DNA of 64,000 bases from Vibrio casei (lineage in GTDB: Bacteria; Pseudomonadota; Gammaproteobacteria; Enterobacterales; Vibrionaceae), in contig NZ_AP018680.1 of the NCBI RefSeq assembly GCF_002218025.2, forward strand, positions 1,240,001 through 1,304,000. The letters are read 5' to 3'. The notes under the pieces are model-generated. The model was not told where the DNA came from. It searched no databases and saw only the letters and a program-made list of their open reading frames with translations. Of the stretch, positions 20,511 through 25,653 are shown one piece after another. Positions within the stretch are counted from its first letter, which is position 1. Every line of letters begins with the position of its first letter. Both the position numbers and the translations under genes were made by a program.

Positions 20511-22559
20511 ATGGATGTTAAATCGGATAAACCGGCTTCAACGGTTTTAATTCCCGTTTTTATTCCCGCCGTTATTGTTATTGCTTTAGTAGTGATTGGA
20601 ACTATATCTAACCCTGAGCGAGCCGGCATTTTCTTTTCTGACTTGCTTGCCGATGTTACTACTAATTTTGGTTGGTTTTATATGCTTGCGGTTGCCATTT
20701 TTTTGGTCTTTATCGTAACGGTCGCGATCAGTAAATGGGGCGAGATAAAACTCGGTCCCGATCACTCTGAGCCAGAATATAGCTTCGTAGAGTGGTTCGC
20801 GATGTTATTTTCTGCAGGTTATGGTATCGCATTGCTTTTCTTCGGTGTGGCCGAGCCAGTATTGCATTACGCATCACCGCCAACCGCAACACCAGAAACT
20901 ATCGATGCTGCTCGTCAAGCGATGCAAATTGCGTTTTTTCACTGGGGTTTTCACATTTGGGCGATTTATGGTTTAGTGGGGCTGTCACTTGCTTACTTCG
21001 CTTTTCGCCATGGTTTACCACTTTCTATGCGCTCGACACTTTATCCTCTAATTGGCGATAAAATTCATGGTCCAATTGGTCATACTGTTGATACTTTTGC
21101 GATTCTCGGGACTTTGTTTGGTATTGCCACCACGCTAGGTTTATCGGTAACACAAATCAACACTGGCTTAAATTATTTATGGCCTGAAATTCCAATTAAT
21201 AGCACCGTACAAATTATTGCGATTACCTTGATCACTTTATGTGCGTTGGTTTCAGTATTAGCAGGTATGGATAAAGGGGTGAAAAACTTATCTCTACTGA
21301 ATATCGCACTTGCTCTTTTATTGATGATATTTGTGTTTATCGCCGGTCCAACTCTGTTTATCTTAAACACCTTTATGCAAAATACAGGTAGCTATTTAAG
21401 TAACATTGTTGAGCGTACCTTTAATCTACAAGCATACGTATCAAGCGATTGGATTGGTAACTGGACACTGTTCATCTTTGGTTGGACTATTGCATGGGCA
21501 CCGTTTGTTGGTTTGTTTATTGCAAAAATTAGCCGTGGGAGAACTATTCGCCAGTTCGTAGTGGGTGTTATGGTCGTACCAACGATCTTCACTTTCCTTT
21601 GGTTTTCAGTGTTTGGTGATACGGCGTTACATATGATCATGACCGATGGTTATCACCATATCATTCAAGAAGTTCAAAATAATAATGCTATTGCTTTGTT
21701 CAAATTGTTTGAACGTCTGCCTATGACATCGATTATTTCGTTTATTACGGTTATTTTAATTATTACTTTCTTTGTGACGTCATCCGATTCAGGCTCATTG
21801 GTTATCGACTCTTTAGCCTCTGGTGGGGTACAAGAAACGCCAATTTGGCAACGTACTTTCTGGGTAGCAACAGAAGGGGTTGTCGCTTCAGTGCTGTTAT
21901 TAGCTGGTGGTTTAGGTGCTTTACAGACCGCGAGTGTTGTCAGTGCTTTACCATTTGCGATTATCATGCTTATTGCGATGGTAGGTATGATCAAAGCATT
22001 GCGTATTGAAGGGCATCATGAAGATAGCCAACAGCAATATAGACAAATGCAGCAATCGACTAGTCCTACAGGGAAAGGCTTGTGGAAGAAGCGTTTAGCC
22101 AATTTAGTCGATTTCCCATCACGTGATTCTGTTGATAACTTTATTCGTATTACGGCATTAAATAGTATGCGTAAAGTGGAAGAAGAATTGGAAGCTCAAG
22201 ATTGGGAAGCTGAGGTGACTTTTGATGAAGAACAATGCCGCGCTCATTTTGAAGTTTATAAAGAAGGGCAAGTTGAGTTCATCTACGAAATTCGTTTGCG
22301 TGCTTATGAAATACCAGAGTTTGCGGCTAATGAAGATGGTGATGAACTGCAAGACGAATATTATTATCGTGCTGAGGTTTTTTTACGTCGTGGTGGTCAA
22401 GCTTATGATGTTTACAACTATGAGCCTCAAGACATTATCAATGACATTTTGAATCAGTTCGAACGTTATTTGCATTTTGTGCATATTTCTCCGGGTATTC
22501 TTCCTTGGAATATGGAAGAACACGACGATGATGCGCTGCCTGAAAAATCGGATACATAA
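20511..22559 (+). CDS. BCCT-family transporter, BetT-like (choline/betaine uptake)
   Basis: The 682-residue protein has 12 predicted membrane spans. The BCCT signature region with the aromatic substrate box is seen at FIFGWTIAWAPFVGLFIAK around residue 325. From about residue 500 there is a hydrophilic C-terminal domain of some 180 residues, acidic at the end. That long tail is characteristic of BetT and related proteins, where it regulates osmotic activation; most BCCT carriers lack it. The likely role is Na+- or H+-coupled uptake of choline or another quaternary ammonium compound. No bet genes are adjacent. TAGGAG precedes the ATG. Confidence 0.88.
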   Translation: MDVKSDKPASTVLIPVFIPAVIVIALVVIGTISNPERAGIFFSDLLADVTTNFGWFYMLAVAIFLVFIVTVAISKWGEIKLGPDHSEPEYSFVEWFAMLFSAGYGIALLFFGVAEPVLHYASPPTATPETIDAARQAMQIAFFHWGFHIWAIYGLVGLSLAYFAFRHGLPLSMRSTLYPLIGDKIHGPIGHTVDTFAILGTLFGIATTLGLSVTQINTGLNYLWPEIPINSTVQIIAITLITLCALVSVLAGMDKGVKNLSLLNIALALLLMIFVFIAGPTLFILNTFMQNTGSYLSNIVERTFNLQAYVSSDWIGNWTLFIFGWTIAWAPFVGLFIAKISRGRTIRQFVVGVMVVPTIFTFLWFSVFGDTALHMIMTDGYHHIIQEVQNNNAIALFKLFERLPMTSIISFITVILIITFFVTSSDSGSLVIDSLASGGVQETPIWQRTFWVATEGVVASVLLLAGGLGALQTASVVSALPFAIIMLIAMVGMIKALRIEGHHEDSQQQYRQMQQSTSPTGKGLWKKRLANLVDFPSRDSVDNFIRITALNSMRKVEEELEAQDWEAEVTFDEEQCRAHFEVYKEGQVEFIYEIRLRAYEIPEFAANEDGDELQDEYYYRAEVFLRRGGQAYDVYNYEPQDIINDILNQFERYLHFVHISPGILPWNMEEHDDDALPEKSDT

Positions 22560-22623
22560 AAACGATATCTATCAACTCGCGATGAAAACTCGCTTGTTGT
22601 TTTTAAGTATTTACGAGAATAAG

Positions 22624-22652
22624 CCTCACTAGAGATAGTGGGGTTTTTTTAG
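22624..22652 (+). terminator. Terminator of the BCCT gene
   Basis: CCTCACTA-GAGA-TAGTGGGG forms an 8-bp stem (one G-T pair) and is followed by TTTTTTT. Confidence 0.8.
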
Positions 22653-22670
22653 ATTTAAAGAAATCATAAT

Positions 22671-22746
22671 GGCTCATTTGGTGTTTGATGTTGACTTGTG
22701 AGCCACTCTGGCTCATCATTATTTGAGCTAAACACCAAATGAGCTA
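22671..22746 (+). promoter_or_regulatory. Nested palindromes and promoter upstream of the recombinase-like gene
   Basis: Perfect 15-bp inverted repeats (22672-22686 and 22730-22744) flank an inner perfect palindrome, TGAGCCA-CTC-TGGCTCA (22699-22715). A TTGACT -35 element lies at 22691-22696, and the inner palindrome falls in the 17-bp spacer before a weak CATCAT -10. The half-site GGCTCA or its variant TGAGCT recurs five times. The layout suggests a multi-site operator controlling the next gene, possibly by its own product, or an ancestral recombination site. Confidence 0.65.
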
Positions 22747-22769: not shown

Positions 22770-23510
22770 ATGCCACATCCTAAAGTTATCGGGTATCTAC
22801 GGGTTTCACCTAAAATAGAAGATATAGATCATCGTATTGAGGCGATGAAAAATATAACTCAAAAATTATTATTTATTGAAAAGGGAGTAAGAGGCCATGT
22901 GCCTTTGGACGAAAGGCCTCAGTTTCAATTGGCTATCTCACAGATCAATACTGGAGATACATTGCTTATTTGGTGGATGACTGATTTTGGGCTGGGCTTC
23001 AAGCTCGCTTATGATGTGATTACCGACTTATTATCTAAAGGTATTACCGTTAAAACTCACCATCAAAATCTTTGTTTTAAACCAAATGATGATCAAACGG
23101 ATGCGCTTTTACGTTTAATTAAAGGTTATGAAGAAATTGAAACTTTTCAGCGTTTAATGGCGGCAGAACTTGGTCGTCGTAAATTGAAAGACAATAAAGG
23201 GGAGTGGGACGATAAATTCCGTGGAAGGCGTGCAAACCATGAGCTTCATAAAAGTATTGCCAAATTACTTTTAACTGATCGCACTTTGCAAGCAATAGCC
23301 GATGAAACGGGATCCAGTATTTCGACAGTGAAACGTGTGAAATCGAAGTTACAGCGTAAAGCAGAAATAAGCAGCATGGAGATCTCCCATCGTAAAAGAG
23401 ATAGAAGACATGACCGCCATACTCATCACATTCGACAGACTGAACTTGAACAAGTTACGCGAAAAATTTCTGCTCTAGAAGCAAGTAAAAAATATAAGGA
23501 ATGTAAATGA
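22770..23510 (+). CDS. Serine-recombinase-like protein with degenerate catalytic site, probable DNA-binding regulator
   Basis: The 246-residue protein has a resolvase/invertase N-terminal domain (GYLRVSP, R11 and S13 matching the catalytic Arg8 and Ser10 of gamma-delta resolvase; R49 matching Arg45). D72 is present, but the following residues read FGLGF, so the catalytic arginines expected at the LDRLGR motif are Phe73 and Gly76. A resolvase-type HTH is at residues 160-194. A basic His/Arg-rich tail and a short C-terminal coiled coil follow. DNA binding is likely to be kept and strand exchange lost. AAGGAG precedes the ATG. The stop overlaps the next start (ATGA). Confidence 0.8.
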   Translation: MPHPKVIGYLRVSPKIEDIDHRIEAMKNITQKLLFIEKGVRGHVPLDERPQFQLAISQINTGDTLLIWWMTDFGLGFKLAYDVITDLLSKGITVKTHHQNLCFKPNDDQTDALLRLIKGYEEIETFQRLMAAELGRRKLKDNKGEWDDKFRGRRANHELHKSIAKLLLTDRTLQAIADETGSSISTVKRVKSKLQRKAEISSMEISHRKRDRRHDRHTHHIRQTELEQVTRKISALEASKKYKECK

Positions 23511-24313
23511 AGCCGAATCGTAAACTGAAAAGTGCTGCTGTGATCGCAACGTTATCACTTACTCCGAATATGCAGCGTATTGTTTTACAAGGTGACGACC
23601 TTAAAGAATTACAGACTACCGATCTTGGCGGCTACATTAAATTAATGTTTCACCCAGATGGACACACTGATATAAGTAACATGGCAGAAGGCGAACGTCC
23701 TGTTATGAGGACTTATACGATTAGTGAATTAAATATTGATAAAGGTGAAATTAGTGTCGATTTTGTTAAACATGAAGTGAATGCTGAGCTTTGCTCTAAT
23801 ATTGATAGGGAAAGTGGTGGATATGCCATTTCTTGGGCTACGCAAGCATCAGTAGGAGATCTTATATACATTGGTGGCCCCGGTAATAGTCAAAATATTG
23901 ATTTTAATGCGAACCGGTGCATCTTAATTGCTGACATGACTGCTATTCCCGCAGTGAGCGCTAAAATTGCAATGTTAGATAAAGAGGCCGTTGGCGACGT
24001 GTTTGTGCAAATAACGTCACAAAAAGATTTGCCAAATTGGACTTTACCCGATGGTATGACATTGCATACTGTGTTTGGTAATGTGCCAATGCAACTGGCT
24101 GAAGCGGTTACTAATTTGGTTATTGATCGCCAAGATGTAGCTATTTGGTGTGCGTGTGAGTTTACTGCGATGAAAGCGATTCGTACTTACTTTAATGATA
24201 ACGATGCCATACAACGAAGTAAAAGTTACTTCAGTAGTTACTGGAAACAAGGTGTGACAGAAGATGGGCATAAAATCATTAAGCGAGAAGACGCAGATAG
24301 TGAAGCCTTTTAA
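23507..24313 (+). CDS. Siderophore-interacting protein (FAD-dependent ferric-siderophore reductase)
   Basis: The 268-residue SIP/ViuB-family flavoprotein releases iron from ferric siderophores by NAD(P)H-dependent reduction in the cytosol. The FAD-binding motif RTYTI is at 68-72, and GGPGNS follows at about 124. The second domain shows the ADMTAIPA segment (usually GDETALPA) and WCACEFTAMKAIRTYF (usually W-A-G-E-x-x-A-M-R). The final EDGHKIIKRED resembles the family's C-terminal region. It is translationally coupled to the recombinase-like gene. No siderophore synthesis, receptor or transport genes are nearby and no clear Fur box was found. Confidence 0.88.
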   Translation: MKPNRKLKSAAVIATLSLTPNMQRIVLQGDDLKELQTTDLGGYIKLMFHPDGHTDISNMAEGERPVMRTYTISELNIDKGEISVDFVKHEVNAELCSNIDRESGGYAISWATQASVGDLIYIGGPGNSQNIDFNANRCILIADMTAIPAVSAKIAMLDKEAVGDVFVQITSQKDLPNWTLPDGMTLHTVFGNVPMQLAEAVTNLVIDRQDVAIWCACEFTAMKAIRTYFNDNDAIQRSKSYFSSYWKQGVTEDGHKIIKREDADSEAF

Positions 24314-24413: not shown

Positions 24414-24440
24414 CAGCGAGTTTAACACTCGCTGATTTAT
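24414..24440. terminator. Terminator between convergent genes (sip / metC)
   Basis: A perfect 8-bp stem, CAGCGAGT-TTAAC-ACTCGCTG, lies between the convergent genes. Read on the minus strand it is followed by TTTTATTATTG, which serves metC. The plus-strand side is followed only by ATTTATTATAA, which is a weaker tract. Confidence 0.65.
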
Positions 24441-24462: not shown

Positions 24463-25653
24463 TTATCCATTCAATGTGGCATTATACGCTTCAAAGCCAC
24501 GCTCTAAATCAGCGATTAAATCATCGACATTTTCTAAACCAATATGGAGTCGAACTAGTGTCCCTTCAAAATTAGGGTTAGAAACAGTACGCATCGTATC
24601 GAAACTGCGTGGCTCATTAGCAAGAATTAGACTTTCATACCCACCCCAAGAATACCCCATACTGAAATGATGAACGGTATCAAGTAATGCTGTTGTAGCG
24701 TGCTTATTACTGGTTTTCATTACGAAGGAAAATAAGCCATTTGAGCCGGTGAAATCACGTAAAAAAAACTCATGCCCTGGGCACGATGGTAATGCTGGGT
24801 GGCGGACATGGTCTACTTCAGGACGAGTTTCAAGCCATTTTGCAATTGCTAAGCTGTTTTGTTCATGTTGCTTTAGGCGAACGCTGAGTGTGCGTAGACC
24901 GCGTAAACCAGTATAAGCATCATCCGGAGAGACGCATTGACCAAGTAAGTAACTTTGCTCACGTAATTGAGGCCAGTATTTTTCATTGGCAACTGCAGTG
25001 CCTAGCATGACATCTGAGTGACCAACGATGTATTTAGTGGCTGCTTGAATTGAAATATCGACACCGTGCTCAAAGGGTGAAAAGTTCACGCCAGCGGCCC
25101 AAGTATTGTCGAGCATCACAATGATATCGTGTTCATGTGCAATGCGAGATAATGTTGGTACATCTTGCACTTCCATGGTGTAAGAACCCGGAGATTCAGT
25201 AAATAGAATCTTAGTATTTGGACGAATGAGATCGCGAATCCCTTCACCGATACTTGGTTCGTAATACGTGGTTTCAATCCCCATTTTTTTGAGAATGATA
25301 TTGCAGAAATCACGGGTTGGCTCATAGCAGCTATCAACCATTAAAACGTGATCGCCATGCTCAACGAAAGACAAGATTGAATTTGTAATCGCTGCAGCGC
25401 CACAAGGATAAAGGGCGCAACCTGCACCCCCTTCAATTTCGACCATTGCTTCTTGGAAGGCAAAATGGGTTTCAGTACCACGGCGACCGTAAAATAAAGT
25501 GTGCCCCTGGCGCTTCATCGTGGCAGCATTTTTTTCAGCAACGGTATCAAATACAATAGTAGAAGCACGTTGTACGGGTGGGTTCACAACGCCATGAGTC
25601 CATTTTTTATTACGTCCGGCGGTGATCAATGTGGTTTCAAATTTTTTTGACAT
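24463..25653 (-). CDS. metC: Cystathionine beta-lyase
   Basis: The 396-residue enzyme of the Cys/Met-metabolism PLP family splits cystathionine into homocysteine, pyruvate and ammonia in methionine synthesis. The PLP lysine is in the SIQAATKYIVGHSD segment, and substrate/cofactor residues are in FYGRRGTETH and in MLDNTWAAG. The sequence around SYLLGQCVSPDDAYTGLRGL fits MetC rather than MetB or the gamma-lyases. No MetJ box (AGACGTCT repeats) was found in the 57-nt gap behind the upstream gene cls, so metC may be read from the cls promoter. Confidence 0.9.
   Translation of the reverse strand: MSKKFETTLITAGRNKKWTHGVVNPPVQRASTIVFDTVAEKNAATMKRQGHTLFYGRRGTETHFAFQEAMVEIEGGAGCALYPCGAAAITNSILSFVEHGDHVLMVDSCYEPTRDFCNIILKKMGIETTYYEPSIGEGIRDLIRPNTKILFTESPGSYTMEVQDVPTLSRIAHEHDIIVMLDNTWAAGVNFSPFEHGVDISIQAATKYIVGHSDVMLGTAVANEKYWPQLREQSYLLGQCVSPDDAYTGLRGLRTLSVRLKQHEQNSLAIAKWLETRPEVDHVRHPALPSCPGHEFFLRDFTGSNGLFSFVMKTSNKHATTALLDTVHHFSMGYSWGGYESLILANEPRSFDTMRTVSNPNFEGTLVRLHIGLENVDDLIADLERGFEAYNATLNG

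Follow-up and report, generated by a model that had tools for sequence, protein, structure and literature searches.

A degenerate serine recombinase coupled to siderophore-reductase and efflux genes in Vibrio: a candidate autorepressor

Results

Genes at the locus

The window, that is, the whole stretch of 64,000 nucleotides analysed here (G000:C1:1240001-1304000), carries only two genes between a BCCT transporter gene and a cystathionine beta-lyase gene. They are referred to below as REC and SIP, and the features of the region are the following:

20511-22559: BCCT transporter gene, upstream of REC and closed by its own terminator-like stem
22621..22655, + strand: intrinsic terminator of the BCCT gene, separating it from REC (11-pair terminator-like stem at 22621-22646 and a T run)
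22770..23510, + strand: REC, degenerate serine recombinase and putative autorepressor, 246 aa
23496..23500, + strand: Shine-Dalgarno-like AAGGA for SIP, within REC (by eye)
23507..24313, + strand: SIP, FAD-dependent siderophore-interacting (ferric-siderophore) reductase, 268 aa, in ATGA overlap with REC
24414..24434, both strands: terminator-like stem between SIP and the convergent cystathionine beta-lyase gene (stem scan)
24463-25653: cystathionine beta-lyase gene, convergent with SIP

A sequence-only reading of this DNA had already proposed the ATGA overlap, which is real (23507-23510), and the identity of the second gene, which the databases bear out. SIP matched the Pfam families FAD_binding_9 and SIP with 88.2 and 85.4 bits (cut-offs 23 and 26.3), and its solved relatives are 7xlz (E 2e-54, residues 3-266) and 2gpj (E 2e-41, residues 10-264), out of 268 residues. 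By family and solved relatives it is clearly a siderophore-interacting protein, and reduction of ferric siderophores is the activity predicted from the family.

Fold and active site of REC

REC has the small serine recombinase fold, with a catalytic domain and helix E. Its best structural matches are serine recombinases, and Sin is found among the proteins of the same fold. Three parts can be distinguished:

22770..23189, + strand: catalytic-type domain and long helix E (residues 1-140; alignment)
23190..23357, + strand: predicted C-terminal DNA-binding domain with helix-turn-helix, HTH (residues 141-196; helices 157-167, 173-180 and 184-207)
23358..23507, + strand: basic, His-containing C-terminal tail (residues 197-246), missing in six intact relatives

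Residue positions were assigned by aligning REC without gaps to invertase and Sin proteins of solved structure and to catalytically intact relatives. The equivalents of gamma-delta S10, R8 and R45 are S13, R11 and R49, all of them kept, and here the alignment agrees with the sequence-only reading. The D67-R68-x-x-R71 motif, which is catalytically important in serine recombinases and whose two arginines are required for catalysis, is absent from REC, where D67, R68 and R71 are replaced by T71, D72 and L75. The sequence-only reading had looked for the arginines at F73 and G76, one residue too far, and had taken D72 for the conserved Asp; since D72 occupies the R68 position, it is instead the substitute of that arginine. 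The claim is thus partly confirmed: Arg is missing at both catalytic positions.

The window protein itself gave no Pfam Resolvase match. Against HTH_7 it reached 13.4 bits, under the cut-off of 23.8, while two relatives exceeded it (33.7 bits in L041 and 34.6 in L043); a Trp_repressor match was also under the Pfam cut-off. Two other identities were considered and ruled out: a repressor with the tyrosine recombinase fold, of the MrpR type, because the best structural matches are serine recombinases, and a PadR regulator, of the YqjI/NfeR type, because PadR was not found among the Pfam matches at E <= 1.

The REC family and the loss of R68

The search of 227 Vibrio genomes, with a 21-row alignment (A1) as query, gave 60 family loci in 57 genomes, all with at least 168 bits; below this value there was one contig-edge fragment at 126 bits and then nothing above 87 bits. 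Among named records, close relatives are present in Vibrio rumoiensis, V. litoralis and Vibrio sp. CK2-1. An open reading frame (ORF) spans the catalytic region in 59 of the 60 loci.

R68 is kept in six of the 59 readable loci (G024, G056, G153b, G227, G237 and G261), and the same six, called intact here, also keep D67, R71 and Q19. The other 53 have one of six residues in its place (A, E, V, D, T or S); 46 of them have lost D67 too, and R71 is still present in 27. Across the readable loci S10 was found in 59/59, R8 in 57/59 (R or K in 59/59) and R45 in 58/59, so that these three positions are nearly invariant despite the loss of D67 and R68. The sixtieth locus, G040b (L040, G040:C2:1717000-1731000), has lost its N-terminus including Ser10, the remaining frame being open with E at R68, and its genome carries a second, complete REC member before an MFS gene (L050). 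Added to the 53 readable ones, G040b brings the loci without R68 to 54.

A tree of 69 rows (59 from Vibrio, three others, and seven ordinary recombinases as outgroup, all seven with R68) was made by a quick method and has several long branches; in it a branch with SH-aLRT 100 separates the 56 R68-less rows from all others. The six intact loci lie outside this clade, towards the outgroup, a topology that fits a single catalytic loss followed by spread. The dN/dS ratio was 0.05-0.10 in nine of ten REC pairs, two of these nine with dS above 1, and the tenth pair was saturated. Both the catalytic-type and the DNA-binding parts show little nonsynonymous change. Such ratios show that the protein is maintained and not decaying.

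Partner genes

Partners were called by short N-terminal motifs of the same-strand downstream gene. Behind the 54 loci without R68 we found SIP in 11, an MFS exporter in 33 and neither in 10; none of the six loci with R68 has such a partner, and all 44 coupled loci lack R68. The nearest models of the three MFS proteins tested were EmrD and Bcr/CflA, yet under the cut-offs. The ORFs of REC and MFS overlap as called in 30 of 33 loci, by 4 nt in 24, by 1 nt in two and by 20-25 nt in four, the last arising through an upstream start call. Overlap of REC and SIP occurs in four of the 11 loci, and a gap of 2-45 nt separates the two genes in the other seven. The order REC-SIP-MFS is present in three genomes of two families (Vibrio G189, and G298 and G368 of family f10), so SIP and MFS partners can belong to one operon. 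The sequence-only reading had seen in REC a dedicated regulator of iron-siderophore reduction, a description that these counts and the joint order make too narrow.

The REC-SIP pair on which that reading was built does recur in relatives, although most Vibrio genomes are without it: it was found in 11 of the 227, the window included, in Photobacterium sp. GJ3, whose SIP is 44 % identical to that of the window, and in two genomes of another family. REC-MFS occurs in G586, of a third family. The BCCT and cystathionine beta-lyase genes flank nine of the 11 SIP-type loci as they do in the window, the exceptions being G073 and G189. At E 1e-3 no match to the REC family was found in 25 further SIP loci that were inspected (L059-L083), which indicates that SIP at large is independent of REC. 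The neighbours in these 25 loci are different, often Lrp- and LysE-like genes by eye.

Two further neighbours may be mentioned. In G298 (L182) a glyoxalase-like ORF, identified by eye, follows the MFS gene. In L163 (G210:C4) a DUF3861 gene (Pfam, 94.6 bits) lies 14 bp downstream of the R68-less member G210b, and DUF3861 is perhaps a third kind of REC partner.

Promoter and putative operator

Between the BCCT terminator and the REC start codon, the window contains these elements:

22671..22686, + strand: putative operator box 1, GGCTCATTTGGTGTTT, upstream of -35; one exact site in its own genome
22691..22719, + strand: sigma-70-like promoter TTGACT-17 bp-CATCAT, promoter score 9/12
22698..22705, - strand: putative operator box 2, GTGAGCCA, within the 17-bp spacer (repeat analysis)
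22709..22716, + strand: putative half-site TGGCTCAT at -10, in the orientation opposite to box 2 (repeats D1 and I5)
22723..22729, - strand: putative half-site TTGAGCT downstream of -10 (resembles the remaining half-sites on visual comparison)
22730..22746, - strand: putative operator box 4, AAACACCAAATGAGCTA, which pairs with box 1 in inverted orientation (pair I1)

Boxes 1 and 4 are complementary at 15 of 15 bases, with arms 43 nt apart. The half-site pattern of the putative operator, GGTTCAT/ATGAACC around -35 and -10, stands before most SIP- and MFS-coupled genes. Scored out of 19 against the consensus TTGGTTCATTTGGTGTTGA, box 1 reached at least 14 upstream of 45 of the 54 loci without R68 and in 3 of 1240 mononucleotide-shuffled upstreams, a test that is partly circular because the consensus was taken from the same loci. 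Nine of the 54 stayed under 14, and three of the six intact loci reached it.

An exact scan of the 227 Vibrio genomes for the 15-base core GGYTCATTTGGTGTT returned 34 sites, one per genome, and the reversed pattern used as control returned two in all. Thirty-one of the 34 lie 49-121 bp upstream of an R68-less family gene match, the site in G183 being reverse-oriented, although these 31 are not all independent since about 20 of those loci had served to define the pattern; the other three fall within ORFs.

The promoter survey covered the 48 promoters with a box-1 score of at least 13, leaving intact loci out. The spacing between -35 and -10 is 17 bp in 44 of them, box 2 (TGA[AG]C) lies within the spacer in 42, and a promoter score of at least 9/12 was reached by 40 of the 48 and by 9.8 % of shuffles. 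In most loci a TTGACA-like -35 begins only a few bases past box 1. In the promoter scan of this region of the window, promoter-like sites were no commoner than in shuffles. Mean column conservation over eight aligned SIP-type loci was 0.76 in the operator and 0.77 in the terminator, with 0.42 in the stretch before the terminator and 0.50 in the leader. No enrichment of Fur boxes was found in the surveyed promoters, so that these do not tie the family directly to regulation by iron.

In the MFS-type promoter of G040a, measured by hand, boxes 1 and 2 make up a 32-bp dyad centred on -35, and boxes 3 and 4 stand head-to-tail, 17-18 bp apart; the SIP-type promoters of the clade of the window have their middle boxes arranged partly otherwise. 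By eye, the upstream regions of the intact loci G056 (L171) and G153b (L168) resemble this operator in layout, while their half-sites read differently (TGGACAT/ATGTCC in G056). The layout shared with intact relatives suggests that the operator descended from the recombinase's own site, and the differing letters may mean that site and protein have co-evolved.

C-terminal tails

The tail after the HTH motif varies, with a range of 9-80 residues. It has at least 30 residues in 17 of the 54 loci without R68, with 9-19 % His, and 6-13 residues without His in the six intact relatives; His/Arg-rich tails are thus confined to R68-less members and their length is strongly variable. YqjI/NfeR is a PadR-family regulator with a His-rich extension, and this analogy, together with the His-rich tails of some members, suggests a metal as the signal. 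Against a sensor located in the tail, three SIP-coupled members (G014, G041 and G197) have merely nine residues past the HTH motif, and in 31 of 33 MFS-coupled members the tail has 21-27 residues with 0-2 His.

Discussion

REC as a putative repressor

We consider it probable that REC, a small serine recombinase by fold, is catalytically dead and acts as a DNA-binding repressor of its own promoter and operon. The loss of D67, R68 and R71, the fold, the purifying selection, the conserved operator on a sigma-70-like promoter and the recurring gene order are read from sequence; from them we infer the loss of recombination, the binding to the boxes, repression as the direction of control and relief by a signal. 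Dimers of REC would bind the GGTTCAT/ATGAACC half-sites, which lie on either side of the region from -35 to -10 as well as within it, and a bound dimer covering both elements would shut the operon of REC itself, which is REC-SIP in the window and REC-MFS or REC-SIP-MFS elsewhere. A signal linked to the siderophore or to a metal, iron or another one, could relieve the repression, and in members with a His-rich tail this tail may mediate the response. Upon release SIP would be expressed and would free iron from siderophores, together with the MFS exporter where present. That a recombinase was turned into a regulator, as the sequence-only reading had it, is thus supported indirectly, by a single R68-less clade under purifying selection, a dedicated operator over its own promoter and the operon coupling.

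Several observations count against repression by a dead enzyme. The retention of S10, R8 and R45 seems to exceed what a pure DNA-binding role would require, and 27 of the 53 readable R68-less loci still have R71. In addition, box 1 is weak in nine of 54 loci, 10 of 54 lack a partner of either kind, Fur boxes are not enriched, the window protein has no Pfam Resolvase match, and the promoter scan in the window, taken by itself, does no better than shuffles.

An unlikely alternative, though the strongest of those weighed, is that REC is an activator or dual regulator, not a simple repressor, which needs DNA looping or synapsis by a resolvase-like tetramer. Both the dimerisation-type domain and helix E show conservation and purifying selection, the number of half-sites (four to five) points to more than one dimer, and many poor -35 boxes in MFS-coupled genes (TTGTGG, TTGTAA) could mean dependence on an activator. 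Nevertheless, the spacer and the surroundings of -10 contain half-sites, and a protein bound there normally blocks the polymerase; moreover, REC's own genome has no second exact box-1 site.

It is still less probable that REC retains site-specific recombination despite its altered active site; the boxes would then be its res-like recombination site and the control of SIP a side effect. The nucleophilic Ser in 59/59, R8 as R or K in 59/59 and R45 in 58/59 would agree with activity, and so would the likeness of the operator to a res site, with an inverted pair of boxes 1 and 2 followed, in MFS-type promoters, by head-to-tail boxes, a layout with parallels in intact G056 and in the head-to-tail site II of Sin, as given in the matched text of PMC2428073. 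However, six different residues stand at R68 in 53 loci and D67 is lost in 46 of them. Moreover, the exact core occurs once per genome in 34 genomes, and there is thus no evident second site to recombine with, as far as exact sites go, inexact ones being possible; nine of 11 SIP-type loci also keep the same position between the BCCT and cystathionine beta-lyase genes. Finally, it is very improbable that REC is the decaying remnant of a mobile element and lies before SIP by chance. The varying tails (9-80 residues after the HTH motif) and the N-terminus with Ser10 lost in G040b would agree with decay, but a dN/dS of 0.05-0.10, an ORF over the catalytic region in 59/60, SIP coupling at three different loci or more and a conserved operator speak against it.

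Returning to repression by a dead recombinase, we put forward a broader history of the family, which we hold to be less likely than not. The regulators would all descend from one autoregulating serine recombinase that had lost the catalytic arginine, and would have kept a res-like operator of several half-sites, gained a metal-binding His-rich tail in several branches and been recruited by siderophore-reduction and efflux operons, and they might still pair or loop operator DNA as a resolvase-like tetramer without cutting it. If REC is indeed a repressor, it would show a route from an autoregulated mobile-element enzyme to a host regulator and would be a candidate regulator of iron and efflux genes in vibrios. 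Annotation would be affected as well, because REC-type proteins belong to the resolvase family and one would readily label them recombinases.

Comparison with known systems

Tn3 TnpR, by binding to res, autoregulates its own gene and controls its neighbour, according to the matched passage of PMC7157771. The Tn3 and gamma-delta TnpR proteins share the fold with REC, and their sites overlap their own promoter, as the boxes of REC would if it binds them; unlike REC, which lacks D67, R68 and R71 and resides in host operons, they are catalytically active and part of a transposon. Sin also has the same fold and head-to-tail half-sites, which mark its site II, and it represses a reporter when bound at a site that overlaps the promoter; in contrast to REC it is an active enzyme, and its repression belongs to an engineered assay (matched passages of PMC2428073).

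On the side of the reductase, the window SIP resembles the siderophore-interacting proteins 7xlz and 2gpj over nearly the full length. The YqjI/NfeR-yqjH system of enterobacteria is similar to REC-SIP in placing a local regulator beside a SIP-family ferric reductase, and YqjI/NfeR responds to metal; it is a PadR protein, whereas REC by Pfam is not. YqjI is termed a nickel-dependent repressor and NfeR a metalloregulatory protein in the matched text of PMC7981267, and titles cited there refer to the control of yqjH by YqjI and to the involvement of Fur.

Among the matches listed from open-access literature, seen in part, we found neither a transcription regulator derived from a serine recombinase nor a pairing of REC with SIP or MFS. 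A review of recruited mobile-element proteins presents serine recombinases, in its matched part, as enzymes that rearrange, integrate or resolve DNA (PMC8987985). MrpR, the SPbeta prophage repressor, is a DNA-binding repressor with a recombinase fold whose catalytic residues are lost (matched passage of PMC10516654); it differs from REC in having the tyrosine recombinase fold, unrelated to serine recombinases, and in serving a prophage. As far as these matches go, MrpR is the nearest precedent, and what would be new here is a recombinase-fold repressor from the serine class, present as a family in host operons. REC would then be the serine-class counterpart of MrpR, with living intact relatives, many degenerate ones and their operators at hand for comparison.
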